Origin: Roseofilum acuticapitatum BLCC-M154
Lineage (GTDB): Bacteria; Cyanobacteriota; Cyanobacteriia; Cyanobacteriales; Desertifilaceae
Length of the DNA stretch: 64,000 bases
Direction: 5' to 3'
Assembly (NCBI RefSeq): GCF_030068475.1
Contig: NZ_JAQOSP010000104.1
Span: forward strand, 62,001 to 126,000
Below the pieces are notes generated by a model that saw only the letters and a list, made by a program, of their open reading frames with translations, was not told the DNA's origin and ran no database searches. The position numbers and the translations under genes are program-made. Below, one piece after another: positions 42,865 through 60,817 of this stretch (positions are counted from its first letter, which is position 1; each line of letters starts with the position of its first letter).

Positions 42865-44721
42865 CTAATTTTTGATGGAGTGGGGAGAATTGAGCGATCG
42901 CCCCTGCACCTCAGAAACCGTTGGCTCTTGCAATAATATTAACTTTTCCGATCGCAAACGAATGTACCAGGGAAAGCTTTGCCCTTGCAGACTTTCCCAT
43001 TTCTCCTTAAATAGTTCTGCCTGGAGATGATAGTCCCGGTGATGATTGGGGGGGCGATTTAAGGTCAGATATAAGGTCATGCGGTGGGGACTTTCGCTAG
43101 TATCGGCTAACCAGCAGGGAAAGGTATTTTCTTGCTCACTATCGGCAGCAAAGGTGAGATGATGCGCTCGGATAGCAACTTGGGTGAGGGTATCGGGTAT
43201 GGGTTTATGGGGGGTTAAAGCACAATTCCAATCAATGGCTAAAATTTGCCCTTCTTCCGAGAGGGTGGCACGGGAGAAGTTTTTACAAGCGGTGATCCGA
43301 GCGACGGATTCATAGCGAGGTTCGGTAAAGATGTCTTCTTTGCTTCCAAAGGCGATCGCCTCCCCCCCATCTAAAACCAACAGATTTTGGCAGATGCGAT
43401 AGGCTTCTTCTAAATTATGGGTAACAAATAGGCTCACTCCCAGATAACTTTCGAGGCGATCGACCAATAATTTCACCATCTGTAAATGCAGATAGCTATC
43501 CAACGCAGAGCAAGGTTCATCTAAAAGCAAAATATCCGGTTGACTGGCTAAAGCTCTGGCTAGGGCGACTCGTTGCTGTTGTCCTCCAGAGAGTTGATCC
43601 GGGTAGCGATCGCCCATTCCCGATAAGTATACTGCTGCCAGTTGCGCTTCAATATCCGCAAGAGTGGGTTTCACAGACTTGGGAATCCCAAAGGCAATAT
43701 TTTCAGCCACGGTGAGATGGGGAAATAGGGCATAATTTTGGAACACAAACCCCACGCGACGCTCCGAAGCCGGTACATTAATCCCCTGTTCCGAATCATA
43801 TAACACACGACCCTTGAGAACAATGCGACCCGCATCTGGAGTATCGATACCCGCGATACAGCGTAAAATCAGGCTTTTTCCTGCGCCAGAACTACCCAAT
43901 ATTCCTAATACTTGGCCCTTATCACTCGTAAACGATACATCCAAACCAAACTCGCCTAGTCCTTTGCGAATCTCGACACTCAAATAGGGTGCAGAGTCTA
44001 GAGCCATTTTAGGATAAACCCGCCAAGACAGTAATGAAACAGGGGAAACTATCTTGCCCTTTTTTTCCCTAAATTTGCGCCATAAATTGACCCCCGTCAC
44101 CATCAACAAAGACAGCCCCATCATCACCATGCACCAAAACCAAGCCCTTTCCATGGAACCTGATTCCACCGCCAAATAAATCGCCATCGGAATCGTTTGG
44201 GTTTGGTTAGGAATATTTCCCGCTAACATCAACGTTGCCCCAAATTCCCCCAAGGCACGGGTAAAGGCTAGAGTCGCTCCCGCCATCAAACCCGGAAACG
44301 CCAGAGGTAAACTAATGCGCCAAAAAATACTTTTTTCGCTTGCTCCTAGGGTTTGAGCTGCTTGGGGAATGGTGCGATCGATTTGTTCAAAAGCAGCTAA
44401 AGCCGTTTTGTACATCAGGGGAAACGCCACCACAGTTGCTGTAATGACTGCCGCATACCAGGTAAAGACAATGTGAATATTAAACCGGGATAAAAAAGAT
44501 CCAATCGGGGTATTTTTCCCGAATATCGTTAAGAGAAAAAAGCCTAAAACCGTCGGCGGCAAAACTAACGGTGATAAAAAAAATCCATCCAAGATTGATT
44601 TAGCTTTTCCCCGATAGCGGAATATCCAGTAAGCGGTCGTTATTCCTAGGAAAAAAGTAATCGCTGTAGCAATACTTGCCGTTTTGATGGAGATCCATAA
44701 AGGGGAAAAGTCATCGATCAT
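42865..44721 (-). CDS. modBC: Molybdate ABC transporter, fused permease-ATPase (ModBC)
   Basis: A 618-aa fusion. Residues 1-225 are ModB (about five membrane helices, coupling loop QTLGASEKSIFWRISLPLAFPG). Residues 245-600 are ModC, with Walker A GSSGAGKS, signature LSGGQQQR, Walker B ILLLDEPCSALD and a C-terminal molybdate/TOBE-like region. ModB-ModC fusions are usual in cyanobacteria. It supplies molybdate for the FeMo-cofactor made by the nif genes upstream, on the same strand. It is last in the island, 253 bp after modA. Confidence 0.94.
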   Translation of the reverse strand: MIDDFSPLWISIKTASIATAITFFLGITTAYWIFRYRGKAKSILDGFFLSPLVLPPTVLGFFLLTIFGKNTPIGSFLSRFNIHIVFTWYAAVITATVVAFPLMYKTALAAFEQIDRTIPQAAQTLGASEKSIFWRISLPLAFPGLMAGATLAFTRALGEFGATLMLAGNIPNQTQTIPMAIYLAVESGSMERAWFWCMVMMGLSLLMVTGVNLWRKFREKKGKIVSPVSLLSWRVYPKMALDSAPYLSVEIRKGLGEFGLDVSFTSDKGQVLGILGSSGAGKSLILRCIAGIDTPDAGRIVLKGRVLYDSEQGINVPASERRVGFVFQNYALFPHLTVAENIAFGIPKSVKPTLADIEAQLAAVYLSGMGDRYPDQLSGGQQQRVALARALASQPDILLLDEPCSALDSYLHLQMVKLLVDRLESYLGVSLFVTHNLEEAYRICQNLLVLDGGEAIAFGSKEDIFTEPRYESVARITACKNFSRATLSEEGQILAIDWNCALTPHKPIPDTLTQVAIRAHHLTFAADSEQENTFPCWLADTSESPHRMTLYLTLNRPPNHHRDYHLQAELFKEKWESLQGQSFPWYIRLRSEKLILLQEPTVSEVQGRSLNSPHSIKN

Positions 44722-44802
44722 GAGAAGTCTGTGGGGGAATGGGGGAAAGTCCCTCTCCCGTGGCTAATCTTGTAGGGTTTCCATTGAAGTACAATTCGGC
44801 AT

Positions 44803-44833
44803 GTAGGGGCGAACGGCCGTTCGCCCCTACAGG
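44803..44833. repeat. Palindromic repeat between modA and modBC
   Basis: GTAGGGGCGAAC and GTTCGCCCCTAC form a perfect palindrome around CGGCC in a 253-bp gap. Hairpins ending GTAGGGGCG/CGCCCCTAC are a dispersed cyanobacterial repeat family and share the CGCCCCTAC end with the copies near 12223 and 51953. Confidence 0.7.
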
Positions 44834-44974
44834 TTGTCAACACACCTTGGGACATGAAAGGTATTACGAGCGCTGATTTTCATAGATTTATTCAGTTGAT
44901 GAATTTATTCTATCCTATCAAAATTCACCGGATAAAAGCGTATCAGAGAGAACAAATTTCAGGATTTTTACCCT

Positions 44975-45757
44975 TTATTGGGCTGGTGTAAATCCGTAGT
45001 CTTTGAAGATGGATTGTGCGGTATCCGTTATGAGAAAATCAACAAAACGTTGAGCTTGTTCAGGAAATTTGCTCTGCTGCAAAACGGCGACAGGATACAG
45101 AATAGGAGAGTGGGAGCCTTCGGGAGCAGTGGCAACAATAGTTATTTTATCGGAAAGCATGGCATCCGTTTGATAAACGATTCCGGCATCCACATTACCT
45201 GATTCCACATAAAATAAGACTTGCCGGACATCTTTAGCCAGGACAAATTTAGGCGTAAGATCTTCATATAACTTGAGGTGGCTTAACACTTCTTTTCCAT
45301 ATTGTCCTGCGGGAACTGTTTCTGGATTACCGAGGGCAATTTTTGTGATATTTTCACCGGTTAAGTCGGCAAAGTCTTGAAGGGATTGACTGTCTTTGGC
45401 AGTGACTAACACAACTTCATTTTTGAGGAGATTTTTCCGGGTTTCGACTTTTAATAAATTTTTGCTCTCTAGGATATCGATTTGTTTGGGTGAAGCGGAA
45501 ATGAAGATATCAACGGGAGCGCCTTGTTCGATTTGTTGTTGCAGGGTTCCGGAGGAGGCGAAGTTATAGACGATGAGGGTATTGGGTTCTTGTTGTTGAT
45601 AAGCTTCGGCAATAGGAGCCATTACATCCTGAAGACTGGCAGCGACGGAGACGGTTAATTGGGTTTGGGTTGATGCTTCGGGAGTGCTGGCACTACAGCT
45701 TATACAAATGGTAAGGATTAGGGAAATGATAAAATAGAAAAATCCTCGTTTTTTCAT
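44975..45757 (-). CDS. modA: Molybdate-binding lipoprotein ModA
   Basis: Periplasmic molybdate receptor, about 260 aa. GAGGT lies seven bases before the ATG at 45757, which decides the start (MKKRGFFYFII...) over 45763 and 45817. The signal peptide ends in a lipobox (CISC). The mature part opens LTVSVAASLQDVMAPIAEAY, with ligand-loop residues FNFASSGTLQQQIEQGAP-like (seen as VYNFASSGTLQQQIEQ) and YVESGNVDAGIVYQTDA, both typical of ModA. It lies between the nif genes and modBC. Confidence 0.93.
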   Translation of the reverse strand: MKKRGFFYFIISLILTICISCSASTPEASTQTQLTVSVAASLQDVMAPIAEAYQQQEPNTLIVYNFASSGTLQQQIEQGAPVDIFISASPKQIDILESKNLLKVETRKNLLKNEVVLVTAKDSQSLQDFADLTGENITKIALGNPETVPAGQYGKEVLSHLKLYEDLTPKFVLAKDVRQVLFYVESGNVDAGIVYQTDAMLSDKITIVATAPEGSHSPILYPVAVLQQSKFPEQAQRFVDFLITDTAQSIFKDYGFTPAQ

Positions 45758-45843
45758 GACCATTACCTCAAAGGTGTAAGAAGATTCAAATAACCAGAAT
45801 AAACGAGAATTTTTCAAAACTTTGAAGGGTTGAAGTCAATCGC

Positions 45844-46146
45844 TTACAATATGGATTTTGTCAACTTTCTAACGGCTTGAAAATGCTCGAAACTGGGGGT
45901 TTCAATTTCTCCATCTGCTAACTTTTCGAGTTCACTGGCTAAACGACGCAGATAGTCAGCTTGTCTTCGGATTCTGTCACTGATACCGGTATCTCCGGAG
46001 GCTAGACATTGGGGACAGACATCGGTGATATATTCATCAGAATTGCGATAGGCTCGCGCAATAATTTCTTCAGGGAAGAAGAGCGTACCACAGAGGTGAC
46101 ATTGACATTTTTCATCAAAATAGTTACTTTCTAACTCGATTTTCAT
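45844..46146 (-). CDS. Small zinc-binding protein in the nif-mod island
   Basis: About 100 aa from the ATG at 46146 (MKIELESNYFDEK). Two Cys pairs (CQCHLCG and CPQCLASG), about 30 residues apart, look like a zinc ribbon. The C-terminal half is helical (SDRIRRQADYLRRLASELEKL). The frame could begin at 46194. I do not recognise the family. It lies between nifV and modA on the same strand. It could be a nif-associated helper, but that rests on position only. Confidence 0.6.
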   Translation of the reverse strand: MKIELESNYFDEKCQCHLCGTLFFPEEIIARAYRNSDEYITDVCPQCLASGDTGISDRIRRQADYLRRLASELEKLADGEIETPSFEHFQAVRKLTKSIL

Positions 46147-46256
46147 GAATGGTTTCCTCAGAAGCTTTCTGGTTATGGTATTGGTCACTACCATTTTAAC
46201 AACTTCTTTATAATTCTAGGGAAGAGAGGATCGGTTCAAAGTAAGGGTATCCTGAC

Positions 46257-46290
46257 AAAAAAAGCCTGAAGGAAGGGATAGATTGAGGCT
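46257..46290 (-). terminator. Possible terminator after nifV
   Basis: On the minus strand AGCCT and AGGCT, spaced by 18 bases, are followed by seven T residues. The stem is short, so this is a weak call. If real, it would end the nif transcript just before the zinc-protein gene. Confidence 0.35.
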
Positions 46291-47431
46291 AAGAGGAGTG
46301 GATTTCCTCGGTTTCTGACAACTTCCTGTTACTTAAAAGATCTAATACTTCCTCTTGAGTTACTCCGCGCTTGAGTTGAATGGCTAGAGAACGTACCTGC
46401 TCAAGCAATCGTTGAATTTCTTGTTGTTGCAGGGTAATTTTCTGCTCTTGGAGTAAGCTGTACAATAGCGATCGCCCGGAATGCTTGCCTAAGACTAGAC
46501 GGTGCTGTAATCCGAGTTCCGCCGGATCGTAGGGTTGATAGGTGTGAGCATTTTTGAGCAAGCCATTCACATGAATCCCCGCTTCATGGGTAAAGGCATT
46601 ATCGCCAACCACCGACTTCCAGGGGGGGAGAATATTTCCCGAAGCTTGCTGCACCAACTGAGAAATATCTCGTAACTGATGGGTATCAATTCCTAGTTTT
46701 ATCCCATACAGATGCTTGAGCGCAATCACCACTTCTTCTAAAGCAGCATTTCCCGCTCGCTCTCCCAATCCATTCACGGTGGTATTAACCGAAGTGGCTC
46801 CCGCTTTAACTCCCGCTAAAGTATTCGCCACTGCCATCCCTAAGTCATCATGGGTATGCATTTCGATGGGAAGGGTAACCTGTTGCACCAATTGACTAAT
46901 TTTGTCATAGGTGGCGAAGGGATCGAGGATGCCGACGGTATCGCAAAATCGAAACCGACTCGCTCCCCAGTCTTGCACTTTTTGCACAACTTCGCTCAAA
47001 AATTCGGGATTGGCGCGGGAAGAATCTTCTCCTCCAACCGCAACATAAAATCCGCGATCGATCGCAAAACTAATGCTTTCCTCTAACTGTCGCCAAAATT
47101 GAGACAGCTTGCCACCAAACTTAACCTGGATCTGAAGTTCGGAAACGGGAATCGAGATATGAACTCTATGCAATCCACAGGCAAGGGAGGCTTGAATATC
47201 TTCAATTTTAGCCCGATTCCAGCCCATTAACTGAGCCTTGAGTCCTAAATCAACGATCGCCCGGATCGCATCTGCCTCTTCGCCTCCCATCACTGGAATT
47301 CCCACTTCCAGCTCCGGAACTCCCATCCGATCCAGCAGTTGGGCGATCGCCACTTTTTCCGCCAGAGTAAACGCCACACCCGCCGCTTGTTCTCCATCCC
47401 TCAAAGTGGTGTCATTAATATTAATGCTCAT
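46289..47431 (-). CDS. nifV: Homocitrate synthase
   Basis: Makes homocitrate, the organic ligand of FeMo-co, from acetyl-CoA and 2-oxoglutarate. The 380-aa protein has [17 protein letters not shown] at its N-terminus, the metal residues [16 protein letters not shown], and [13 protein letters not shown]; all are DRE-TIM metallolyase hallmarks. Homology to 2-isopropylmalate synthase is always a caveat, but length and nif context support NifV. It follows nifB by 75 bp. Confidence 0.95.
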
Positions 47432-47506: not shown

Positions 47507-48802
47507 TCATCCACAACCCAAACCATCCCCTTGACATTCAGAAGCGGCTGCGGCAAATTTCGTGCATTCCGTCTGTTTGCGCCGCTTGAACTTCGAGAGA
47601 TCTTCCCCCTCATAAACCGCCTTCAATCCCAGATTAATAAACCCACTCAGTTCTATGGGCATAATCCCACATTGACTTAAAATCTGTTTCGGATTATCTC
47701 CCATACCACTAGCTAAAATAGCCCGACAATCTTGTAAATTATTCGCCAACTTTTGCCAGCGCTCAAACCCAGTCCCAGACCCTGGCGTTAACCGTTCTTC
47801 CACCAAATTAAATCCAGTTTTAGTCTGTTCCCAAATCTGCAATTGCAGGGCTTGTCCCAGATGTTGATTGACTAAAACCCCTTCAACCGTCGCCACAGCA
47901 ACATAGGGGCGATTATTCGATTTTTGCGGAATTTTGCGCTCAGAAGAAGAAGCCAAACAACCCGCAAACTCCTGCGATCGATCTTCGCCCAAAAGTCCCA
48001 CCGCATCAGCCCGACAGCGAGTACAATGGCGCATTTGTGGCAAATATTCCTCGCACTCTTTGCGAATTTGATTCATCATTCGTCCATTGGGTTCTTTCAG
48101 TTCCTCAAAGGGCGTATCTGGAGTGGGAAACATGGCCATGGCATTGAACAAATCAGCTCCTAATTCTGCCGCCTTTTTCGCCACTTCCACCACATGATGG
48201 TCATTAATTCCCGGCATAACAATACAGTTAATTTTCACTGTCACGCCGGCCGCTTTTAAACCCTTAATCGCTGCCAATTGCCGCTCTAGGAGTAAAGTCG
48301 CTCCTTTTAAGCCTTGATAAACCGTCTTTTCATCCCGAACCCAGCGATAAACCTTGCGGGTAATTTCCGGATCGACTGCATTCATAGTCACGGTCACATG
48401 ACTGACCCCAATTTCGGCAATTTTAGCAATATATTCTGGCTTTAAATTCAGTCCATTGCTGGCCAAACAGAGGATTAAATCTGGGTATTCTTCCCGCAAC
48501 AATTCCATCGTGCGTAAGGTTTCCTCTGGATTGGCAAAGGGGTCACCTGGCCCGGCAATTCCTGCCACTGTAATTCGCGGTTCTTTCTCCAATACTTGAC
48601 CCATATAATAGAGGGCTTGTTCTGGAGATAATACATTACTGGTTACTCCTGGTCGGCTTTCATTGACGCAATCATATTTACGATTGCAATAGTTACACTG
48701 AATATTGCATTTGGGCGCTACGGGTAAATGGACTCGTCCATATTGTCCTTTGACATTGACATTGAAGCAAGGATGTTTTTCGTAATCAATAGTAGTGGTC
48801 AT
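47507..48802 (-). CDS. nifB: FeMo-cofactor biosynthesis protein NifB
   Basis: Radical-SAM enzyme making NifB-co, the 8Fe-9S-C core. It has CNIQCNYCNRKYDC (CxxxCxxC), AGPGDPFANPEETL, and conserved cysteines CTRCRADAVGLLGED. The C-terminal part (YVAVATVEGVLVNQHLGQA) is a NifX-like domain, so both halves are present. The 431 aa are shorter than most cyanobacterial NifB (about 470-500), through a shorter N-terminus. It ends CQGDGLGCG, a cysteine-rich tail. The order nifN-nifB-nifV is not the standard cyanobacterial one. Confidence 0.97.
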   Translation of the reverse strand: MTTTIDYEKHPCFNVNVKGQYGRVHLPVAPKCNIQCNYCNRKYDCVNESRPGVTSNVLSPEQALYYMGQVLEKEPRITVAGIAGPGDPFANPEETLRTMELLREEYPDLILCLASNGLNLKPEYIAKIAEIGVSHVTVTMNAVDPEITRKVYRWVRDEKTVYQGLKGATLLLERQLAAIKGLKAAGVTVKINCIVMPGINDHHVVEVAKKAAELGADLFNAMAMFPTPDTPFEELKEPNGRMMNQIRKECEEYLPQMRHCTRCRADAVGLLGEDRSQEFAGCLASSSERKIPQKSNNRPYVAVATVEGVLVNQHLGQALQLQIWEQTKTGFNLVEERLTPGSGTGFERWQKLANNLQDCRAILASGMGDNPKQILSQCGIMPIELSGFINLGLKAVYEGEDLSKFKRRKQTECTKFAAAASECQGDGLGCG

Positions 48803-48871: not shown

Positions 48872-50269
48872 CTACAAATAGCCATACCCAACAGGGGAAT
48901 CGGCTTGTTTTTTGTCGATAATGGCGTTAACAATTTGATCGAGAAGGCGCTGGGTTCCGCGATAGCCAAGGTGTAAAATACGCTGTCCTCCAAAGCGATC
49001 GTGAATGGGGAAACCGACGCGAATCATGGGGATTTGATGTTTACGAGCAATGGGATATCCTTTGCTGGTTCCGATGATTAAATCGGGTTTAATTTGGTCA
49101 ATTTGTTCGCCAATTTCGTAGAAGTCCACATTGTCGCGAACGGAGATGGGTTCTTTGAGGATATCTGCGGTAACAGCTTCGATCGCCGGAGAGAGTTGGC
49201 CGCTATTACCACCGGAGGCACAGAAGATCGGTTTAATACCCACTTCTGCGAGAAAAGCCGTAATTCCTACGACCAAATCTTCCTCTCCGTAGACTACCGC
49301 CCGTTGACCAAAGAGATATTTGTGAGCATCCACATAAGCATCGACTAACCGCCCCCGTTCCGATGCATGGATTTGGGGAATCGCTTGTCCGGTAAGGTCT
49401 TGGAGCAAGTTAAAGAGGCGATCGCTCTCTCGCAAACCGATGGGAAGTCCCAAGCGATGCAAAGGCACATCAAAGCGCTTCTGGAGAACTTCTCCACCGG
49501 TGTCTCCTGTGCCTTCTAAGACTCGTCCGAACTCCAAAGTGGCGATCGCCTGATCCATCGCCCGAATATCAGCAACCGGAGTTCCTCCTTCTGGAATCGT
49601 CAGATAATCCAGTTGTGCCGGCCCATCCAATGTATCCGAAAAATCCGGTAAAATTGTGCCTTTAATGCCAAAATCTTGCACAATTTCTCGCAAATACCGC
49701 AGATCAGCCGGAGACACTAAACCCGGCAAAACATTAATCGAAGGACTATGGATCAAAGGTGAACTTTCCACCCCTGATAATTGCTCAATAACCGCTTTAA
49801 CCGTTGCATGAAAACCTTCCGCATGAGTCCCACTATAACTCGGAGTTGCCACCCGTACCAACGTCGGTAACGGCTCCTCCCCTTGGCCAAATTCTTGTTG
49901 GAATTCCAATAAGAAACGCTTCACATCATCGCCAATAGTTTCTGTTAAACAAGTCGTAGCAATTCCCACCACATCCGGATGGTATTTATCCATCACATTG
50001 AGTAAGCCTTTTTTTAAGTTTGGCCCGCCCCCATAAACCGCATGTTTTTCACTCAGAGCAGACGAAGCAATATCAATCGGTTCCCGGAAATGGCTAATAA
50101 TATAGCGGCGCATATACGTTGCACATCCTTGAGAACCATGCAAGAAAGGAACGCACCCTTCTATGCCTCGAAAAGCAATACAAGCCCCCAGAGGTTTACA
50201 GAGTTTACAGGCATTCGTTGTCGAGACATATGCCTCGGTTTGGCGCTTAATTTTTAAGGTTTTACTCAT
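48872..50269 (-). CDS. nifN: FeMo-cofactor scaffold subunit NifN
   Basis: Beta subunit of the NifEN scaffold where NifB-co matures to FeMo-co. A 465-aa NifK homologue: NACKLCKPLGACIAFRGIEGCVPF and HGSQGCATYMRRYI hold the cluster cysteines, and TTCLTETIGDDVKRFL is the family core. Forty-eight bp separate it from nifE. It contains two HIP1 sites, unlike nifK and nifD. Confidence 0.95.
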   Translation of the reverse strand: MSKTLKIKRQTEAYVSTTNACKLCKPLGACIAFRGIEGCVPFLHGSQGCATYMRRYIISHFREPIDIASSALSEKHAVYGGGPNLKKGLLNVMDKYHPDVVGIATTCLTETIGDDVKRFLLEFQQEFGQGEEPLPTLVRVATPSYSGTHAEGFHATVKAVIEQLSGVESSPLIHSPSINVLPGLVSPADLRYLREIVQDFGIKGTILPDFSDTLDGPAQLDYLTIPEGGTPVADIRAMDQAIATLEFGRVLEGTGDTGGEVLQKRFDVPLHRLGLPIGLRESDRLFNLLQDLTGQAIPQIHASERGRLVDAYVDAHKYLFGQRAVVYGEEDLVVGITAFLAEVGIKPIFCASGGNSGQLSPAIEAVTADILKEPISVRDNVDFYEIGEQIDQIKPDLIIGTSKGYPIARKHQIPMIRVGFPIHDRFGGQRILHLGYRGTQRLLDQIVNAIIDKKQADSPVGYGYL

Positions 50270-50317: not shown

Positions 50318-51667
50318 TTACTTCGACTGAGCGCGTCGAGGCACAAATTGCCAAATCGGAGACATCACCGTAGAATGAACTTCCTTGGCAAAATTGAGCA
50401 TTCCCACAAACCCTTCTAGGGCTTCTTTCCGTTCATGGTTGTGGTCGCAGAATCCAATGCCCAATTTATAAGCAATAGGCCGTTCTTTAACCCCACCAAC
50501 AAAAATATCTACATCCTTTTCTTTCAAAAAATCAGATAATTCTAAGGGATTAGAATCATCAACAATAATGGTTCCTTCGTCAGTGATTTCATGGAGTTCT
50601 TGATAATCAGCTTGGGTTCCCGTTTGTGACCCCACCATTACCACATCCATACCCAATAACCGGAAAGCTTTCACTAAGGAGAAAGCCTTAAAAGCTCCTC
50701 CCACATAAATCGCTGCGGTTTTGCCTTCTAAGTCTTTGCGGTATTCATTTAACTGGGAATAGAGCGTGGATAATTCAGAGCGGACTAACTCTTGCGCTCG
50801 TTGCAAAATACTCGGATCGTCCTCAAAAAAACGAGCGACTGAGTATAAAGCTTCTGCCATATCTTCCACGCCAAAATAAGAGACGCGCAGGAAGGGTACA
50901 CCATAGTCCTCTTGCATCAGTTTGGCGAAGTCCATGGTTGCACCAGAACATTGCACCACATTCAAAGCTGCCCCATGCGATCGCTGAATATCTCCGATCC
51001 GTCCGTCTCCGGTAATATTCGCCACGACTTGAATACCCATCCGCTCAAAATATTCACGGATAATCCAAATTTCTCCCGCTAAATTAAAGTCACCCAAAAT
51101 ATTGATACTGTGGGGAGAAATCCCCGTCGTATCCCCCATTCCCACCAACCGAAACATGGCTCGACAAGCGGCATTATATCCCGCTCGTTTATTCCCCTTA
51201 AAGCCTTCCGACTGTACGGGAATAACAGGAATACCTTTTTCTTGGCTGACTCGTTTACAAATGCCTTCTAAGTCATCGCCAATAATGCCCACAATGCAAG
51301 TCGAATAGACAAATGCACCCTTGGGATCGTGGCGATCGATTAATTCACATAAGGCTTGGTGAAGTTTTTTCTCCCCACCAAAGATCACATCCCGTTCTTG
51401 CAAATCTGTGGAAAAACTGAGCCGATGTAATTCTGGCCCAGAGGACAAAGCGCCCCGAATATCCCAAGTATAAGCCGCACAACCAATGGGGCCATGCACT
51501 AAATGAATGGCATCAGCAATGGGGTAAAGAACGACGCGGGAACCACAGAATACACAAGCTCTTTGACTAACAGCACCAGCCAAACTTTCTTTATTGCAAG
51601 CAAACTCAAAAGGGCTATCACCTTTGCGGTGAATTTGTTGCTCTCGCTCTCTTAAAATTCCAGTCAT
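50318..51667 (-). CDS. nifE: FeMo-cofactor scaffold subunit NifE
   Basis: Alpha subunit of NifEN, 449 aa and NifD-like. Cysteine segments are SQRACVFCGSRVV, HGPIGCAAYTWDIRG and YSTCIVGIIGDDLEGI. Ends WQFVPRRAQSK. It begins a sub-block nifE-nifN-nifB-nifV and lies 377 bp from the ferredoxin gene, a gap filled by repeats. Confidence 0.96.
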   Translation of the reverse strand: MTGILREREQQIHRKGDSPFEFACNKESLAGAVSQRACVFCGSRVVLYPIADAIHLVHGPIGCAAYTWDIRGALSSGPELHRLSFSTDLQERDVIFGGEKKLHQALCELIDRHDPKGAFVYSTCIVGIIGDDLEGICKRVSQEKGIPVIPVQSEGFKGNKRAGYNAACRAMFRLVGMGDTTGISPHSINILGDFNLAGEIWIIREYFERMGIQVVANITGDGRIGDIQRSHGAALNVVQCSGATMDFAKLMQEDYGVPFLRVSYFGVEDMAEALYSVARFFEDDPSILQRAQELVRSELSTLYSQLNEYRKDLEGKTAAIYVGGAFKAFSLVKAFRLLGMDVVMVGSQTGTQADYQELHEITDEGTIIVDDSNPLELSDFLKEKDVDIFVGGVKERPIAYKLGIGFCDHNHERKEALEGFVGMLNFAKEVHSTVMSPIWQFVPRRAQSK

Positions 51668-52044: not shown

Positions 52045-52362
52045 TTACGTGGCAAATAAATAATCTTCAGCCGGTTTATTCTCTTCGAGAGCATCGAGAA
52101 TTTCATCGATCGCATCTTCATCCACTTCCCCATACCAGTAGTTGTCGGGATAGACCATCATCACCGGGCCATGATCGCAGAGCTTGAGACAACCGGTAGA
52201 AGAGACCAAAATATTATCAAGTCCGCGATCGATTAATTCACCTTCGAGATACTGAATTAAACTCACAGCTTTCTTTTTATTACAAACTCCCTGGGCTTCT
52301 CCCTTGGTTCTAAAGGAATTACAAACAAAAATGTGGTGTTCGGGTTTCGTGAATTTACTCAT
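52045..52362 (-). CDS. Thioredoxin-like 2Fe-2S ferredoxin in the nif operon
   Basis: A 105-aa protein with cysteines spaced C14-x12-C27-x30-C58-x3-C62, the pattern of thioredoxin-fold [2Fe-2S] ferredoxins (Shethna protein/NuoE-like). TGCLKLCDHGPVMMVYPDNYWYG-type sequence around the second pair is typical. It lies between nifK and nifE, where nif clusters of sulfate reducers and relatives often carry such a gene. It may serve electron transfer or conformational protection of nitrogenase from oxygen, as the Shethna protein does; that role is inferred. Confidence 0.88.
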   Translation of the reverse strand: MSKFTKPEHHIFVCNSFRTKGEAQGVCNKKKAVSLIQYLEGELIDRGLDNILVSSTGCLKLCDHGPVMMVYPDNYWYGEVDEDAIDEILDALEENKPAEDYLFAT

Positions 52363-52425: not shown

Positions 52426-53799
52426 TTACAGAACCAACTCAAAGATTTCATCGGGATCATCCCGGTCTTTGCGTTCCAAAATCGTATTGATGATGTTGCA
52501 CAACAGATGCATACTGCCCTTGTAACCTACAGAGGGGAAGTAGCTATGACCCACCCGGTCGAGAATCGGCCAACCAAACCGGACTAAGGGAATATCTTCT
52601 GCACGGGCAATATGTTTACCATACACATTCGAGATCAACAGATCCACAGGATTGCCCTTAATCAGTTGATGCAGATAGAATAGATCGGTATCATCTTTGA
52701 CGATCGCATCCGGAACCCACTCTTGCAGGATTTCTTCACAGCGTTTCCGGAAATACTTAGAAGCCGTTCCCGTAATCACATATACCGGTTTAGCACCACA
52801 ACTGACCAAAAACTCCGTTAAAGGAACCATTTGATCCGGGTCTCCAGCCAAAGCCACCCGCTTACCATACAGATACTGCTGCATATCCGTCATCAGGTCT
52901 ACTAACCGACCCCGGTCATCTTTTAAACACTCTGGAACCTCTGCACCAGTGGTTTCTAAAATCGCTTGGATAAAGCGATCCGTTGCCGCAATTCCAATCG
53001 GTAAATCCAGCAGATGATAGGGAACCTTACACTTAATTTCCAGTTCCTTCGCCGCTTGTGTCGAGGCATCCGGCCCCAGAGCCAGAGTTGCAATACTATC
53101 TCCAGTCGTATGCAACGCTTCCACCGGAGTTCCCCCTTTAGGATACATCTCAAACGTTCCCGTTTGCGGCGTATCCACTACATCACTGGTATCCGGGAAA
53201 ACCACAGATTTTACCCCCACTTGATCCAACAGATGCTTAATCTGGCGGATATCCGACGGTTCTACATAACCCGGAATCACATTAATTTGCTGTAGAGGAG
53301 TTTCCGTTTTCCGCGAAAGATACTTAACAATCCCAGCCGTCATATTCGACCAACCCGTAATATGGGTTCCCACATAACTGGGGGTATTGGCATGAATCAC
53401 TACCTTACCTTCCGGGATAATCCCACTTTCTCGCGCTTCCCGAATCAACGTAGGAATATCATCGCCAATGGTTTCTGACAGACAAGTGGTATTGATCGCA
53501 ATCACTTCCGGGTCATAGAGTTTATACATCGTAGTGAACGCTTGACGCAAGTTCGCGCCACCACCAAAGACGGCTGAACCTTCCGTAAAAGAACTGGTGG
53601 CCGCCATAATCGGGTCGCGATAATGACGAGTGAGGTGCGATCGATGGTAAGAACAACAACCTTGTGAGCCATGGGAATGGGGTAAGCATCCATGAATTCC
53701 TAGTGCCGCATACATTGCCCCGATGGGTTGACAAGTTTTTGCTGGGTTGACCCGTAGGGCTTTGCGTTCTACAACTTCTTTGGGGGTTGCTTCTAACAT
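52426..53799 (-). CDS. nifK: Nitrogenase MoFe protein beta subunit
   Basis: Holds half of the P-cluster in the alpha2-beta2 MoFe protein. Cysteines fall in NPAKTCQPIGAMYAALGIHGCLP, SHGSQGCCSYHR and NTTCLSETIGDDI. The 457 aa lack the about 50-residue N-terminal extension of Azotobacter and typical cyanobacterial NifK (about 510-520) and match the length of the clostridial type (about 458). HIP1 sites are absent from it. A hairpin lies 37-76 bp upstream, between nifD and nifK. Confidence 0.97.
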   Translation of the reverse strand: MLEATPKEVVERKALRVNPAKTCQPIGAMYAALGIHGCLPHSHGSQGCCSYHRSHLTRHYRDPIMAATSSFTEGSAVFGGGANLRQAFTTMYKLYDPEVIAINTTCLSETIGDDIPTLIREARESGIIPEGKVVIHANTPSYVGTHITGWSNMTAGIVKYLSRKTETPLQQINVIPGYVEPSDIRQIKHLLDQVGVKSVVFPDTSDVVDTPQTGTFEMYPKGGTPVEALHTTGDSIATLALGPDASTQAAKELEIKCKVPYHLLDLPIGIAATDRFIQAILETTGAEVPECLKDDRGRLVDLMTDMQQYLYGKRVALAGDPDQMVPLTEFLVSCGAKPVYVITGTASKYFRKRCEEILQEWVPDAIVKDDTDLFYLHQLIKGNPVDLLISNVYGKHIARAEDIPLVRFGWPILDRVGHSYFPSVGYKGSMHLLCNIINTILERKDRDDPDEIFELVL

Positions 53800-53912: not shown

Positions 53913-55568
53913 CTAATCCCAAGGGGCTTTAATGTATTGCCAAGCCGGGCCATTAACGCGCAGATCCACATCTTTAGCAAAGTTCACCGCACCTCGGAAA
54001 CCCGCAAAGGGCCCGCCATAGTCATAATTGTGCAATTGCTTGCAAGGTACACCGAATTTCTCAATCACATACTTATCCTTAATCCCAGAACCAATCAGGT
54101 CAGGCTTAAAGCGTTGGATTAACACATCCAGTTCATGGTGAGAAATGTTATCGACCAGCAATGTGCCTTCACCCATATCCGGCATCATGCCTTTATAGTC
54201 ACTGACTAGATTTTCGCCACGCAATCGCTCCATTTCTGCATCCGATGGAGGGTTATAGCGCTCTGAATCGGGTTCAACTTCCAATTCTTCGATATTGCGA
54301 CTATCTGCATCTACTTTAATATTCGGCAGAGCTTGCCGTCCTTCATAGTCATCCCGGTGAGCAAACTCATAGCCTGCTACAATGGTTTTCATGCCGAGAT
54401 CTGCAAACAGTTCTTGGTAGTGATGGGCCCGGGAACCGCCAACGAACAAGAACACCGTTTTTCCTTCGAGTCGTTTGCGGTACTGGGTCAACTGAGCTTC
54501 CGCAAGACCCAATTCCTCCAAAATCACCTCTTCTACCCGTTGGGTCAAAGCCGGATTATCAAAGAACTTAGCAATCTTACGCAAACTCTTGGCAAAAGCA
54601 TGAATGCCAATAAAGTTCACCTTCATCCAAGGCGTGCCATATTTCTCTTCCATCATGTTTGCCATATAGTTGATGGAGCGATGACACATCACCAGATTCA
54701 ATTTAGCTAAATGAGCCTTGATTGCATCATCATAAGACCCATCACCACTAAAGGTAGAAACTACCTTAATACCACATTTTTCCAGAACCCGTTCAATTTC
54801 CCAAGAGTCACCACCGATATTATATTCACCCATCAGGTTAACGGTAAATCCTTCGATTTCTTCCGTTTCGGTGTCCTTGCCAATCCAATGTTTAAAGAAA
54901 CCATTATTAGCAATATGGTGTCCTGCGGATTGACTCACTCCTTTATATCCTTCACAGTTAAAGGCAAGCACCGGAAGTCCCAGTTTCTCCGTCATTTCCT
55001 TGGCAGCCCCCTGGATATCATCTCCAATTAATCCCACCGGACAAGTGGAGTGAATCGTAATCGATTTGGGTTGGAAAATTTCATAAGCCTCTTGCACTGC
55101 CTGCTTCAGCTTATTGACCCCCCCGAACACAATATCATGCTCGTTCAAATCCGTAGAGAAACAATAGTGCAAAAAGTCCTTGCCATCTGCTCTCGGTTTA
55201 AACTGATTGCGTCGAGTCATCCATGCATAATAAGAACAGCCAATTGGCCCATGAACAATATGTACGCAATCTCCAAATGGCCCAACGACCACACCTTTAC
55301 ATCCGGCAAAAGCGCACCCTCTTTGGGTAATAATTCCGGGAGTTGTCCGAGCATTTGCATCAATTTGTTGCTCCGAAATCGATGGGTCGCGAACTACAAT
55401 ATGTTTTTCCCGTTTGCGAGCCACTTTTTTCGGATAAGCTTCAAGAATTTCTGTAACGCTCTTATTCGTTTCTTCCAGACTAATCGGAGACGGAGAAAGC
55501 ATTACGCCTTGTTGTGCTTGTTGGGATTTCGTCTCGAAATCAGTGGTCGGTGATAATTTTTCAGTCAT
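53913..55568 (-). CDS. nifD: Nitrogenase MoFe protein alpha subunit
   Basis: Catalytic subunit carrying FeMo-co and half of the P-cluster. Cysteines GCAFAGCKG, HGPIGCSYY and STCPVGLIGDDI are P-cluster ligand segments; CEGYKGVSQSAGHHIANN holds the His195 equivalent; VMCHRSINYM holds the FeMo-co cysteine (Cys275 equivalent) and QLHNYDYGGP its histidine (His442 equivalent). GGAGATAAAACC precedes the ATG at 55568, giving 551 aa. A stretch of about 50 residues (about 416-466, NIEELEVEPDSERY...) is inserted relative to Azotobacter and standard cyanobacterial NifD, as in clostridial NifD. The gene is uninterrupted, with no excision element. Confidence 0.97.
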   Translation of the reverse strand: MTEKLSPTTDFETKSQQAQQGVMLSPSPISLEETNKSVTEILEAYPKKVARKREKHIVVRDPSISEQQIDANARTTPGIITQRGCAFAGCKGVVVGPFGDCVHIVHGPIGCSYYAWMTRRNQFKPRADGKDFLHYCFSTDLNEHDIVFGGVNKLKQAVQEAYEIFQPKSITIHSTCPVGLIGDDIQGAAKEMTEKLGLPVLAFNCEGYKGVSQSAGHHIANNGFFKHWIGKDTETEEIEGFTVNLMGEYNIGGDSWEIERVLEKCGIKVVSTFSGDGSYDDAIKAHLAKLNLVMCHRSINYMANMMEEKYGTPWMKVNFIGIHAFAKSLRKIAKFFDNPALTQRVEEVILEELGLAEAQLTQYRKRLEGKTVFLFVGGSRAHHYQELFADLGMKTIVAGYEFAHRDDYEGRQALPNIKVDADSRNIEELEVEPDSERYNPPSDAEMERLRGENLVSDYKGMMPDMGEGTLLVDNISHHELDVLIQRFKPDLIGSGIKDKYVIEKFGVPCKQLHNYDYGGPFAGFRGAVNFAKDVDLRVNGPAWQYIKAPWD

Positions 55569-55715: not shown

Positions 55716-56126
55716 TTAGGCAAAAAACATGCCTGAACCCATTTCATCAATCGCAAAGTTCCCTCTTTCACGAGTCCGAATCCGAATACTGTCTAGCACA
55801 GGTACGACAAAGACTTTGCCATCTCCAGGATTCCGAGTTTGATTCACCTTGATGATGGTATTGACAACTTCTTTAACCAATTCATCGGGAACCACTAAAC
55901 TAATCCAACGCTTGGGAATTAAGCGAGGAACATGAGCGAGTAAAGGCAAGACTTCTGATGCATCTTCGGGGTGTTGATTTAAAGCATCTACGACTTCTGC
56001 TTCCATGGCTTGTCGTCCTCGTCCGACAACTTTCACGGCGTTAAATCCCGGAAAACCTGCCTTAATGAGTGCCTCTTTGGTCTCATGCATTTTGTTCATG
56101 CGAATAATCGCAATAACTTCTTTCAT
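55716..56126 (-). CDS. nifI2: Nitrogenase-regulating PII-like protein NifI2
   Basis: PII-family protein, 136 aa from the ATG at 56126, which follows AAAAGGAG. It has MKEVIAIIRMNKMHETKEAL, VVGRGRQ, an enlarged T-loop region (about 45-70: VDALNQHPEDASEVLPLL) and RNPGDGKVFVVPVLDSIRIRT. NifI2 with NifI1 binds NifDK and blocks it; 2-oxoglutarate and ATP relieve this, as shown in methanogens. It lies between nifI1 and nifD, the diagnostic position. NifI proteins are not part of the standard cyanobacterial nif system. Confidence 0.93.
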   Translation of the reverse strand: MKEVIAIIRMNKMHETKEALIKAGFPGFNAVKVVGRGRQAMEAEVVDALNQHPEDASEVLPLLAHVPRLIPKRWISLVVPDELVKEVVNTIIKVNQTRNPGDGKVFVVPVLDSIRIRTRERGNFAIDEMGSGMFFA

Positions 56127-56267
56127 CTCCTTTTCCTCTGTTTTATCTAGGATAGAGTGATTAGGGGGTATTATGAGGTTCAAACAATAAAGCTTATAAA
56201 TCAGCTATGAGCCAGGATTTACCCCTAACCATTCGCAATTGAAATGTCACTTTAATGGCAACTTCCC

Positions 56268-56654
56268 TTAAGTCTTCACTAAAGTTCGGGCAGAGGTTTC
56301 TGGGGTTGCTGTTGGAGAGAGGGCACTGTTTTCTTGAATACCGGTGCTAACAGTGTAGACTTCTTCAACTGGAGTGACGAAGATTTTTCCATCTCCATAG
56401 GCTCCTTCAGTGCCGGTGCGGGCGCTGTCGAGAATAATCCGGATTACGGTGTCTTTGTCTTCATCAGGGACAACAAACATTAACAGTTCTTTGGGCAGTT
56501 CATCATAGTGAACGTTACCAATTTTTAAACCCCGTTGTTTGCCTCGACCATAAACATCAATTTTTGTGACTGCCGGAAAACCTGAATTTAACAAGGCTTG
56601 CATCACATCGTTAGCTTTTTCTGGTCGCACAATGGCTCGAATAGCGACTGGCAT
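56268..56654 (-). CDS. nifI1: Nitrogenase-regulating PII-like protein NifI1
   Basis: A 128-aa PII-family protein: MPVAIRAIVRPEKANDVMQALLNSG opens it, KIDVYGRGKQRG is the pre-T-loop signature, and YGDGKIFVTPVEEVYTVSTG is the family end motif. The C-terminal tail of about 20 residues is serine/threonine-rich. The gene lies 73 bp after nifH and 141 bp before nifI2. With NifI2 it forms the ammonia switch-off complex. Ordinary GlnB is excluded by the lack of the YxxEYxxxx T-loop and by context. Confidence 0.94.
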   Translation of the reverse strand: MPVAIRAIVRPEKANDVMQALLNSGFPAVTKIDVYGRGKQRGLKIGNVHYDELPKELLMFVVPDEDKDTVIRIILDSARTGTEGAYGDGKIFVTPVEEVYTVSTGIQENSALSPTATPETSARTLVKT

Positions 56655-56727: not shown

Positions 56728-57638
<911 letters not shown>

Positions 57639-57770: not shown

Positions 57771-57812
57771 GTTATACGATTTAAAATATTGAATAACTGT
57801 ATATCTAACTAC
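57771..57812 (-). promoter_or_regulatory. NtcA-activated type promoter of nifH
   Basis: A perfect GTA-N8-TAC at 57799-57812 (GTAGTTAGATATAC on the minus strand) is followed after 22 bases by TATAAC (57771-57776). This is the spacing of class II NtcA-dependent promoters. The start site would be near 57764, giving a leader of about 210 nt. NtcA senses 2-oxoglutarate, as NifI does, so transcription and enzyme activity would respond to the same signal. Confidence 0.72.
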
Positions 57813-58034: not shown

Positions 58035-58058
58035 AAAGCACGGTCATGCCGTGCTTTT
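58035..58058 (-). terminator. Terminator after nifU
   Basis: AAAGCACGG and CCGTGCTTT form a 9-bp stem with a 5-base loop, about 45 bp beyond the nifU stop codon. It separates nifX-nifS-nifU from the nifH operon. Confidence 0.7.
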
Positions 58059-58101: not shown

Positions 58102-59034
58102 TTAAATGGCAATAACGACTAAATCTGGTGAGACGCGATCGCGCAAGGTTTGCTCAATGCCTTGTTTTAAGGTGGTCAGTACGCTATAACAACTGCCGCA
58201 GGCTCCTTTTAAGATAACTTTAACGACATGACCATCTATGTCGTAAAGTTCGAGATCGCCGCCATCAAGGGCGATCATGGGACGAATTTCATGGTTTAGG
58301 ATATCTTGAATGAGAGTAATTTTTTGTAATGTGCTGAGTTTGGGTAACGTGGGTGTGGCTTCTGGGGGAGAGCTGGCGAATTTTGCGGCAAGTTCGACGC
58401 AGGTTTCTAGGGCTACATGATGAAGACGCTGTTGTTGTTGTTGTTCTTGGATGGCTTCGGCTAAAAGATCGTCAATTTCGGCTAGACAAGAGCCACAACC
58501 ACCGCCCGCTTTGATGTAGTTGGTGACTTGTTCGGCCCTGGTGAGATGATTTTCGCGGATAATGCGTTTAATTTTGCCTTTGGTGATGGCAAAGCAGCGA
58601 CAAATGAGGGGACTTTCGTCTTCTTCTTCGGCTTGGAGGGGAATGCCTTTGTAGTTGTAAATGGCGGCTTCTAGGGCTTCTTGTCCCATGACGGAGCAGT
58701 GCATTTTTTCTTCGGGCAGCCCGCCTAAAAAGTCGGCAATTTCGCGATTGCTGAGGGTTAGGGCTTCGTCGAGGGTCATGCCTTGAATGAGGTCGGTTAG
58801 GGCTGAGGAGGAGGCGATCGCACTGGCGCATCCAAAGGTCTGAAACCGAGCATCGAGAATGCGTTCAGTTTGGGTGTTAACTTTCAGATGCAACCGCAGG
58901 GCATCCCCGCAGGCAATACTGCCGACATCACCAACAGCAACGGTTTCATTTTCCTCACAGTCGGAGGGAGTGATTTCTCCCATATTATGAGGGTTGTGAA
59001 ATAGGTCAATTACTTTATCTGTGTAGTCCCACAT
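58102..59034 (-). CDS. nifU: Fe-S cluster scaffold NifU
   Basis: Three-part scaffold of 310 aa: IscU-like N-terminus (MWDYTDKVIDLFHNPHNMGE, cysteines in FQTFGCASAIASSSALT and HCSVMG), a central 2Fe-2S Fer2_BFD part (LICRCFAITKGKIKRII, GGGCGSCLAEI), and the C-terminal CxxC domain (VKVILKGACGSCYSVLTTLKQG). It builds clusters delivered to NifH and NifB. It has the full length of cyanobacterial NifU and contains two HIP1 sites, so it may belong to the host rather than the imported block. Confidence 0.96.
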   Translation of the reverse strand: MWDYTDKVIDLFHNPHNMGEITPSDCEENETVAVGDVGSIACGDALRLHLKVNTQTERILDARFQTFGCASAIASSSALTDLIQGMTLDEALTLSNREIADFLGGLPEEKMHCSVMGQEALEAAIYNYKGIPLQAEEEDESPLICRCFAITKGKIKRIIRENHLTRAEQVTNYIKAGGGCGSCLAEIDDLLAEAIQEQQQQQRLHHVALETCVELAAKFASSPPEATPTLPKLSTLQKITLIQDILNHEIRPMIALDGGDLELYDIDGHVVKVILKGACGSCYSVLTTLKQGIEQTLRDRVSPDLVVIAI

Positions 59035-59082: not shown

Positions 59083-60312
59083 TTAGCGAGTGGCAGTCAG
59101 TTGTTTACCCCCGACTGCACTCAACCAACCTTGCTGTTCGTCGGTTTCGTCTTTGAAGGGGGAAATTTGGCGCAGTCGCTCGACGACTTGGGGTATGACT
59201 TGCAATACTTGGTCGATTTCTGCGTCGGTGGTATACCGAGAGAGGCTAAAACGAATGGAACCATGCAAGATGGTGTAGGGTAGGCCCATGGCTCGCAGGA
59301 CATGGGAGGCTTCTAGGGAACCGGAGGTGCAAGCCGATCCGGAGGAGGCACAAATGCCATGGCGATCGAGGGAGAGGAGGATGGCTTCACCTTCGATGTA
59401 TTTGAAGCCAATGTTGGTGGTGTTGGGGAGTCTGAGGGCGGGATGGCCGTTGAGTTGGGTATGGGGAATGGTTTTTAAGATTGTTTGTTCGAGGCGATCG
59501 CGTAATTGTCGCACTTGCCCATTTTCCGCTTCCATAGACTCCATCGCTAACTCAGCCGCTTTCCCCAAAGCAATGATACCGGGGACGTTTTCTGTTCCCG
59601 CTCGTCTACCCCGTTCCTGATGTCCCCCAACTAGCATGGGCCGAAAGCGCACCCCTTTGCGGACATACAAGGCTCCAATACCTTTAGGAGCGTGCAATTT
59701 ATGCCCAGATAATACCAGAAAATCTACGGTACTCTCTTCCATATTCAAGGGCACTTTACCCACCGCTTGTACGGCATCTACATGGAACAAAATGCCCCGC
59801 TCTTTGACGATTTTCCCAATTCTCTCAATGGGGAACAGGTTGCCCGTTTCATTGTTGGCGCACATGACGGAGACGAGAGCCGTATTCTCGGTGAGAGCGG
59901 CTCTCAATTCCTCTAAATTGAGTTGTCCTTTCTCATTGACTCCCAGATAGGTGGTGCTATAACCTTGTTTTTCCAAACCCTTACAGAAGTTAATAATGGC
60001 AGGATGTTCCACTTGGGTGGTGACAATATGGCGCTTGTCGGGACAACTGGCTAAGGCAGCCCGAATGGCGGCATTATCCCCTTCTGTACCGCAACTGGTG
60101 AAGATAATTTCATCCGGTTGAGCTACCAATAATTGAGCTACATTTTCCCTGGCTTGTCTTACCGGTTTGGCCAGTTGTCCGCCAAAGGTATGCATACTGG
60201 AAGGGTTGGCATAATAGTCGCGCAAGTAGGGAAGCATGGCTTCTAAAACTTCATCGGCAATCCGGGTGGTTGCATTGTTATCGAGATAAATGGTTGGGGG
60301 TTTTTTGTCCAT
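59083..60312 (-). CDS. nifS: Cysteine desulfurase NifS
   Basis: PLP enzyme that takes sulfur from cysteine and passes it to NifU. MDKKPPTIYLDNNATTRI opens it (ATG at 60312; the frame continues to 60369), the PLP lysine is in VLSGHKLHAPKGIG, and the catalytic cysteine in GICASSGSACTSGSLEASH. About 409 aa. It follows the NifX-like gene by 118 bp and precedes nifU by 48 bp. Confidence 0.95.
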   Translation of the reverse strand: MDKKPPTIYLDNNATTRIADEVLEAMLPYLRDYYANPSSMHTFGGQLAKPVRQARENVAQLLVAQPDEIIFTSCGTEGDNAAIRAALASCPDKRHIVTTQVEHPAIINFCKGLEKQGYSTTYLGVNEKGQLNLEELRAALTENTALVSVMCANNETGNLFPIERIGKIVKERGILFHVDAVQAVGKVPLNMEESTVDFLVLSGHKLHAPKGIGALYVRKGVRFRPMLVGGHQERGRRAGTENVPGIIALGKAAELAMESMEAENGQVRQLRDRLEQTILKTIPHTQLNGHPALRLPNTTNIGFKYIEGEAILLSLDRHGICASSGSACTSGSLEASHVLRAMGLPYTILHGSIRFSLSRYTTDAEIDQVLQVIPQVVERLRQISPFKDETDEQQGWLSAVGGKQLTATR

Positions 60313-60430
60313 GGTTTCGATCGCAATTGGAGATAATTTGGGCAAGCAGGAATCGCTAAAAATGATCAATAGAGCGCGTTATCCTAGATGGGGATCTCAC
60401 ACGCTGGTCTTGATTATTTCGGCGCTAGAT

Positions 60431-60817
60431 TTAGGCAATGGACTTCTCAACCCATTGAGTATAAAAATCTAAGACGGCAGTTTCTATGGTTTCGTAAACT
60501 TGTACGACTTCTATTCCGGCTTCTTTGAGGCGACTTTCTGGCAGTGCCCCAATTTTAGCGACGATCACTGCTGTGCAATCGGATAGGGCGGCAATGCTCT
60601 CGCTCAGGTCTCCTGGGCTTTCTTCTGGGCCGTGACAATAGGGTTTAACTGGGCGATTTTCCAGCAGTTGAGCTTTCTGCGTGTCTATTTCATAGATGAG
60701 AAATTCCTGGGCATGGCCAAAATGCTCATTGGTTAGACCTTTGTCTTTGCTGGCCACTGCAACCCGAATTTTCTGGGGGGAATTGACAACTGTTGAAGCT
60801 GTCATCGAAGATACCAT
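60431..60817 (-). CDS. NifX/NafY-type FeMo-cofactor binding protein
   Basis: A 128-aa protein of the dinitrogenase iron-molybdenum cofactor (NifX/NafY/NifB C-terminal) fold. KIRVAVASKDKGLTNEHFGHAQEFLIYEID has the HFG motif, and CHGPEE, IAALSDCTAVIVAKIG and LKEAGIEVVQVYETIETAV complete it. It binds or carries NifB-co or FeMo-co precursors. GGAG lies nine bases before the ATG at 60817. It heads the nifX-S-U unit, which is unusual. Confidence 0.88.
   Translation of the reverse strand: MVSSMTASTVVNSPQKIRVAVASKDKGLTNEHFGHAQEFLIYEIDTQKAQLLENRPVKPYCHGPEESPGDLSESIAALSDCTAVIVAKIGALPESRLKEAGIEVVQVYETIETAVLDFYTQWVEKSIA

Follow-up and report, generated by a model that had tools for sequence, protein, structure and literature searches.

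A NifI1/NifI2 pair in the cluster III-type nif operon of the cyanobacterium Roseofilum acuticapitatum: a probable post-translational brake on nitrogenase under predicted NtcA control

The nif locus of Roseofilum acuticapitatum BLCC-M154 makes a question testable, namely whether an anaerobe's direct nitrogenase brake can be layered on the PII/NtcA network of an oxygen-making cell. The locus lies in a stretch of 64,000 nucleotides (contig NZ_JAQOSP010000104.1, positions 62,001 to 126,000), referred to here as the window. The sequences are probably best read as a NifI switch that still works, its NifI2 pocket modified, encoded in an operon that host NtcA would control. It is fairly probable that NifI1 and NifI2 are functional, that they arrived by horizontal transfer as part of a nif operon of cluster III (Desulfobacterota) type, and that they still serve as a post-translational brake.

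The nif cluster occupies the minus strand of the window from a NifX-like domain (60431-60817) through nifV (46289-47431), in the order NifX-like, nifS, nifU, nifH, nifI1, nifI2, nifD, nifK, ferredoxin-like, nifE, nifN-like, nifB and nifV. All coordinates below, unless stated otherwise, refer to this strand of the window. The preliminary description had placed two PII-like genes between nifH and nifD, and this is confirmed; the genes are adjacent and all on the minus strand (PF00543, TIGR01287, TIGR01282). The first, nifI1 (56268..56654), encodes a PII family protein of 128 aa (PF00543 78.4 bits, cut-off 25), is preceded by GAGGAGG, and consists of a conserved core of approximately residues 1-106 followed by a variable tail. 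The second, nifI2 (55716..56126), encodes a PII family protein of 136 aa (PF00543 81.8 bits, cut-off 25). The NifI2 start is likely ATG 56126, the TTG 56183 of the listed open reading frame being too early, because an MKE N-terminus is found in 17/17 cyanobacterial NifI2 homologues and in 54/60 others.

The structural genes are nifH (56728..57552; TIGR01287 451.5 bits), nifD of the cluster III type (53913..55568; TIGR01282 677.9 bits) and nifK (52426..53799; TIGR01286 447.5 bits). For nifD, residues 56-567 match 5vpw and 1mio, and ATG 55568 is the likelier start, preferred over TTG 55619 of the listed frame. Downstream are a 2Fe-2S ferredoxin-like protein (52045..52362; NF041612 85.8 bits, below the cut-off of 150, and PF01257 24.6, cut-off 24.8), nifE (50318..51667; TIGR01283 625.7 bits), a nifN-like gene assigned with its position after nifE (48872..50269; TIGR01285 303.4 bits, below the cut-off of 326.8), nifB with a C-terminal NifX-like domain (47507..48802; TIGR01290 407.5 bits, PF04055, PF02579) and a nifV-like homocitrate synthase gene (46289..47431; PF00682, PF22617). 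Upstream are nifU (58102..59034; TIGR02000 394 bits), a cysteine desulfurase gene named nifS-like by position (59083..60369; PF00266 320.5 bits over 59086-60312) and the stand-alone NifX-like domain (60431..60817; PF02579 81.6 bits), which, judging from the available part of PMC12694226, probably corresponds to what has been described as a truncated nifB'.

Adjoining the cluster on the same strand, at 42865-45817, are a modA-like solute-binding protein and a fused permease-ATPase (modBC-like), presumably for molybdate uptake. Between nifV and the modA-like gene an open reading frame of 116 aa with paired cysteines (45844-46194) gave no Pfam match at E 1e-4. Elsewhere on the minus strand of the window, at 6767-9835, a long open reading frame appears by eye to combine tetratricopeptide-like repeats in tandem with a CHAT-like end. 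Among five other sampled congeners, two (G415 and G427) carry the nif cluster in the same gene order. The remaining three (G402, G438 and G461) are without a nifD of the window type, so that a comparison with them could locate the edges of the transferred cluster.

Both PII-like proteins are closer to NifI-type chains than to GlnB or GlnK. The best solved relative of NifI1 is 9p1x_H (E 2.8e-30, 108 bits; next 65 bits) and that of NifI2 is 9p1x_G (E 2.3e-26, 96 bits; next 68 bits), and GlnB and GlnK structures score clearly below the 9p1x chains for both. PDB entry 9p1x comprises 6 nitrogenase alpha chains, 12 NifI1-like and 6 NifI2-like chains; the PDB label of both PII chains is only 'P-II family nitrogen regulatory protein', and their position and partners suggest a NifI1 and a NifI2. 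The window proteins are 38% (NifI1) and 36% (NifI2) identical to the host GlnB. An AlphaFold2 model of NifI1 (mean pLDDT 78.2) aligns with PII structures, its best match being GlnK1 (Z 15.8, rmsd 3.6, 107 residues). PII family membership of NifI2 rests on PF00543, and its model shows the long T-loop region as two helices. The alignments used for the models had 30 rows (A1) and 38 rows (A2), several rows with stop-codon errors being left out. The occurrence of the pair is not due to chance, as it is present in 60/71 non-cyanobacterial loci fetched with nifD; in the 11/71 loci without both NifI genes, 4 have no nifH on the stretch covered and 7 have nifH. Together, PF00543, the 9p1x chains and the place between nifH and nifD bear out the proposed NifI identity and diagnostic position.

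The host genome (5.2 Mb, listed as 99.84% complete with 0 contamination) has what the preliminary description ascribed to it, oxygenic photosynthesis and a nitrogen-sensing network of its own. Photosystem II CP47 (psbB) scores 1019 bits, above the cut-off; psbB was chosen as the marker because psbA was recovered in fragments, two of which lie at or close to the ends of contigs. NtcA_cyano is present above cut-off, and the host GlnB carries the T-loop RYRGSEY, which is typical of cyanobacteria. Five PII-family matches occur in the genome: GlnB, the NifI pair and two more, which resemble SbtB and a third type. A single nifH scores above the family cut-off; a second nif cluster was considered and rejected, the next nifH-family match (220 bits, presumably chlL) falling below that cut-off. 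DraT (PF07357) gave no match in the host and none in 14 control genomes either.

Control of the operon by the host is predicted from the region upstream of nifH. The NtcA consensus is GTAN8TAC. One match to it, GTAGTTAGATATAC at 57799..57812, lies in the gap between nifU and nifH, where approximately 0.05 would be expected per 549 bp; across the window 7 matches were found and 6.19 expected, i.e. no enrichment. The NtcA-type box is aligned in G415 and G427. A -10-like TATAAC (57771..57776) follows 22 nt downstream of it and the hexamer is identical in three congeners. G415 and G427 share the outer GTA and TAC as well as the TATAAC, although the rest of their gap varies in many columns; conservation also extends to further blocks, mostly nearer nifH. 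A terminator-like hairpin in the same gap (58035..58057), read from the alignment, keeps its stem and differs in its loop in two congeners, which suggests that nifH begins its own transcript after nifU. Upstream regions were scanned for 10 of 19 cyanobacterial clusters, and an NtcA-type match was present in 6/10: the three congeners, G387 and G002 at a similar distance, and G550 farther off. It was absent from the other 4/10 (G603, G595, G512 and M55). On these sequences, an NtcA-type promoter probably drives the nif operon.

A two-layered control can thus be proposed. Host NtcA would set the amount of nitrogenase and NifI would set its activity. With fixed nitrogen in good supply and 2-oxoglutarate declining, the NifI1/NifI2 complex would bind NifDK and block NifH; 2-oxoglutarate together with Mg-ATP would release the complex from NifDK. 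NifDK binding, the block of NifH and ligand release are carried over from the characterised NifI1/NifI2 of methanogens, for which the available part of PMC9765008 describes the mechanism. The action of NtcA at the box and ammonium as the signal in the cyanobacterium are likewise predictions.

In GlnK of Methanococcales, as far as described in the portion of PMC8395244 consulted, ATP is contacted by T29', I38, Q39, G87, K90, V64', R101' and R103' (the prime denoting the neighbouring subunit), with F92 stacking; 2-oxoglutarate is bound via R9, K58 and the main chain at Q39 and G41, whereas the side chain of Q39 binds Mg. In cyanobacterial NifI1, residues R9, T29, Q39, G41, K58, V64, G87, K90 and F92 are each present in 16/16, so that the 2-oxoglutarate half-site (R9, Q39, G41, K58) is intact throughout. 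Positions 101 and 103 are T and S in 16/16, so there is no Arg101 or Arg103. The same holds for cluster III NifI1 relatives (T101 and S103 each in 59/60; R101 absent from 60/60 and R103 from 59/60), the sole R103 being in L075, a row with an out-of-frame end. Loss of Arg103 is not common to every NifI1, since a more distant Bacillota group keeps R103 in 12/12. Cyanobacterial NifI2 has R101 in 17/17 and R103 in 12/17, with S103 in 5/17; other cluster III NifI2 (n=59) has R103 in 59/59 and R101 in 44/59. These counts leave out NifI1 of G550 (a stub) and NifI2 of L018 (a split match). In the window pair, the residue alignment places the ATP-binding arginines in NifI2 (R101, R103), where NifI1 has T101 and S103.

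From these residues, the 2-oxoglutarate half of NifI1 and the arginine half of NifI2 look complementary at the subunit interface, and in cluster III the two halves would make up one complete NifI effector site; the complementarity would be weaker where NifI2 is without one arginine. Loss of conserved ligand residues had been put forward as an observation that would speak against a functional NifI. The 2-oxoglutarate residues are kept in NifI1. The nucleotide residues are lost only in a literal sense, NifI1 being without Arg101 and Arg103 as its cluster III relatives are, and because those relatives share the loss it was not accepted as a disproof of function.

Within NifI2, a single residue, Gln39, which in PII proteins coordinates Mg and thereby 2-oxoglutarate, separates the 17 cyanobacterial proteins (17/17) from all the remaining cluster III proteins in the sample (0/75). 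Among 59 other cluster III rows from several phyla, position 39 is G in 57, R in one and K in one; Q39 also occurs in 0/16 cluster III-type Bacillota and in 12/12 Bacillota of the more distant group. Matches were found in 40 Bacillota genomes and loci in 30; L141 was already in the set and 29 (L151-L179) were added. The two Bacillota groups were split by NifD identity; L170 and L174, with no nifD on the stretch, were assigned to the distant one from their rank and sequence. The position 39 counts leave out NifI2 of L159 (not parsed). In the distant group (L168-L179), NifD is 33-43% identical in the 10/12 where it was seen, and NifI1 R103 and NifI2 Q39 occur together in 12/12. Q39 without NifI1 R103 is found only in cyanobacteria; both are present in distant Bacillota and neither in the rest of cluster III. 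On the larger NifI2 tree, to which Bacillota were added and in which position 39 was masked, cyanobacteria form one clade at 99/86 and Q39 requires two changes (unrooted). On this unrooted tree of bacterial NifI2, Gln39 was apparently regained in cyanobacteria; this is the simplest reading because the cyanobacteria nest among relatives without Q39.

It is possible, though doubtful, that after transfer to oxygenic hosts NifI2 re-evolved Gln39 and that a second, partial effector site now retunes the brake within an operon under NtcA. In such a scheme, cyanobacterial Gln39 would open this second site beside the complete one and so adapt an anaerobe's brake to a photosynthetic cell. Cyanobacterial NifI2 has S103 in 5/17 and a pocket unlike that of its relatives (N29 in 16/17, Q39 in 17/17), so its response may not be that of methanogens.

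The alternative that survives best, although we regard it as unlikely, takes the difference further: NifI would still bind NifDK and would answer mainly to energy charge or to a day-night swing of 2-oxoglutarate, not to ammonium. The distribution of Q39 (17/17 cyanobacteria, 0/59 and 0/16 in cluster III) with the changes at position 29 and, in some, at 103 points this way, as do its recurrence in 12/12 distant Bacillota, the two changes on the masked tree and the 99/86 support for the cyanobacterial clade. Against it, Gly41 of NifI2 is not restored in cyanobacteria, which have I, V, M or L there, and NifI1 still has S at position 103 in 16/16 instead of Arg103.

A second alternative, which we judge improbable, is that NifI1 and NifI2 regulate nothing any longer and are kept solely through their place inside the nif operon. 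The pattern of retention and loss bears on it from both sides. A nifD of the window type (E 1e-190 or better) was found in 17/388 genomes sampled from the order and in 5/386 sampled from the phylum, and NifI1 (E 1e-25 or better) in 6/386 of the phylum sample, the window genome being included each time. The 19 cyanobacterial clusters compared are the 17 from the order sample, G116 and L013 (M55_K2018_004). Both NifI genes are kept in 16/19, a NifI1 stub is present in one and both genes are missing in two. The stub, of approximately 33 codons, is in G550 (LEGE 06147), where NifI2 is open (one assembly). Hydrococcus rivularis carries both genes. M55_K2018_004 has nifHDK with no NifI between nifH and nifD, and a search of its genome for NifI2 gave no match at E 1e-10. 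With NifI1 or both genes lost in 3/19 clusters, the switch is dispensable in some cyanobacteria, and the stub and M55_K2018_004 speak for genes that are mere passengers. Retention of both genes in 16/19 clusters and the invariant ligand residues of NifI1 argue the other way.

Some of these clusters are otherwise irregular. In Microseira wollei NIES-4236 (G437; L027 6815-9338) no NifI was found, breaks interrupt nifH and the beginning of nifD, and the broken genes adjoin an open reading frame that by eye resembles a TnpB-type transposon protein. In G116 (L125 7494-9836) nifU is fused in frame to the end of nifH and only 250 aa of nifD are left, the NifI pair between them being open; the fusion and the short nifD may be a real deletion or an assembly collapse. 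In G561, nifH lies beyond the contig end.

Substitution rates also speak against genes without a function. For the window genome compared with G415 and G427, respectively, dN/dS is 0.111 and 0.096 for NifI1 and 0.052 and 0.062 for NifI2, next to 0.037 and 0.040 for nifH, 0.078 and 0.078 for nifD and 0.056 and 0.057 for nifK. NifI2 thus falls among the nifHDK values, and NifI1 exceeds them slightly because of its variable tail; for the NifI1 core (codons 1-106) dN/dS is 0.023 and 0.029, and in the G000-G415 pair a comparison of nonsynonymous with synonymous changes per site gives Fisher p 6e-18. In seven other pairs dN/dS ranges from 0.058 to 0.475 for NifI1 and from 0.047 to 0.195 for NifI2, the highest values resting on few changes (0.475 on 5 changes in G603-G595; 0.195 on 11 changes in G066-G207). 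Within the genus both nifI genes are under purifying selection close to the nifHDK level, and NifI1 and NifI2 as relics are accordingly judged unlikely.

The operon and its host differ in ancestry, as had been supposed. On the quickly built NifK tree, which contains one bad row (L048) and leaves out rows below 300 aa, the 19 cyanobacterial rows fall on one side of a branch with SH-aLRT 97; their neighbours are L014 (uncultured Desulfomonile), then L015 and L016 ('Deltaproteobacteria'). In a first NifI2 tree the cyanobacterial group reached only 56/71, and L014 lay close to it. The NifK and NifI2 trees, in which host GlnB is not among the rows, point to Desulfobacterota (cluster III) as the nearest relatives of the nif cluster. 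If methanogen ancestry was what the preliminary description meant, neither the locus comparison nor the NifK tree supports it. Transfer of nif from Desulfobacterota or Deltaproteobacteria to cyanobacteria has been published (PMC12694226 and PMC12903952, in the parts available), and the present trees fit it. If the NifK and NifI2 trees are right, the constraint on nifI acted wholly after the transfer.

That the nif cluster of a sulfate reducer was assembled or binned into a cyanobacterial genome, as its Desulfobacterota type and its absence from three of the five other sampled congeners (G402, G438, G461) might suggest, is extremely improbable and already close to refuted, given that the window NifK groups with 18 other cyanobacterial records, that two congeners carry the cluster in the same order, that the genome is 99.84% complete with 0 contamination on a contig extending to at least base 126000, and that cultured strains with such an operon are described in the accessible parts of PMC5061849 and PMC12694226.

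The preferred reading, in which NifI still works as a switch and host NtcA controls the operon, concerns a type of operon that is in print. NifI1/NifI2 in cyanobacterial nif operons were published in 2016 (PMC5061849) and 2025 (PMC12694226, on the NifI pair of the nif operon in Sodalinema), so that, going by the parts of these papers available, NifI in an oxygenic cyanobacterium is not new. The window represents a further lineage within the described group of cyanobacterial desulfo-type nif operons. Loss of nifI has been tied to aerobic life (PMC12903952, available part). Among the open-access papers listed, no title or abstract opening showed a functional test of NifI in cyanobacteria, and the available parts of the cited papers mention neither the Q39 pattern of NifI2 nor the NifI1 stub or the NtcA-type box. 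Two sequences supply natural controls, the NifI1 stub of LEGE 06147 and M55_K2018_004, in which both genes are lost. A desulfo-type nif operon is reported for Phormidium lacuna under its present name Sodalinema stali (PMC12694226, available part); deletions of nifI look feasible because this organism is reported to be naturally transformable and to yield gene knockouts (PMC13222304, available part).

Among known systems, the closest are the desulfo-type nif operons of Geitlerinema PCC 9228, Coleofasciculus/Microcoleus chthonoplastes, Pleurocapsa 7327, Phormidium OSCR and Sodalinema (PMC5061849, PMC12694226). As far as the available parts of these papers go, the order nifH-nifI1-nifI2-nifD-nifK is the same, the host likewise has glnB and ntcA, and nothing essential differs; the papers give the presence of NifI and its expected role. 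Two of the published strains are within the compared set as L011 (contig SMDP01000020.1, strain P-1104) and L012 (Phormidium OSCR). The cluster III NifI of L014 and L016 share the gene order, T101 and S103 of NifI1 and the long T-loop region of NifI2; their identity to the window proteins is 70% and 72% for NifI1 and 51% and 59% for NifI2, respectively, and position 39 of NifI2 is R and K, whereas it is Q in cyanobacteria. In PDB entry 9p1x, the best sequence match for both window proteins, the NifI1-like chain has R103 and the NifI2-like chain has Q39-R40-G41. The switch of Methanococcus maripaludis, likened here by its description in the available part of PMC9765008, also has two PII-like genes in the nif operon, and direct inhibition of NifDK is proposed for both; there, however, the host is archaeal with control by NrpR, whereas the operon in the window is probably controlled by NtcA.
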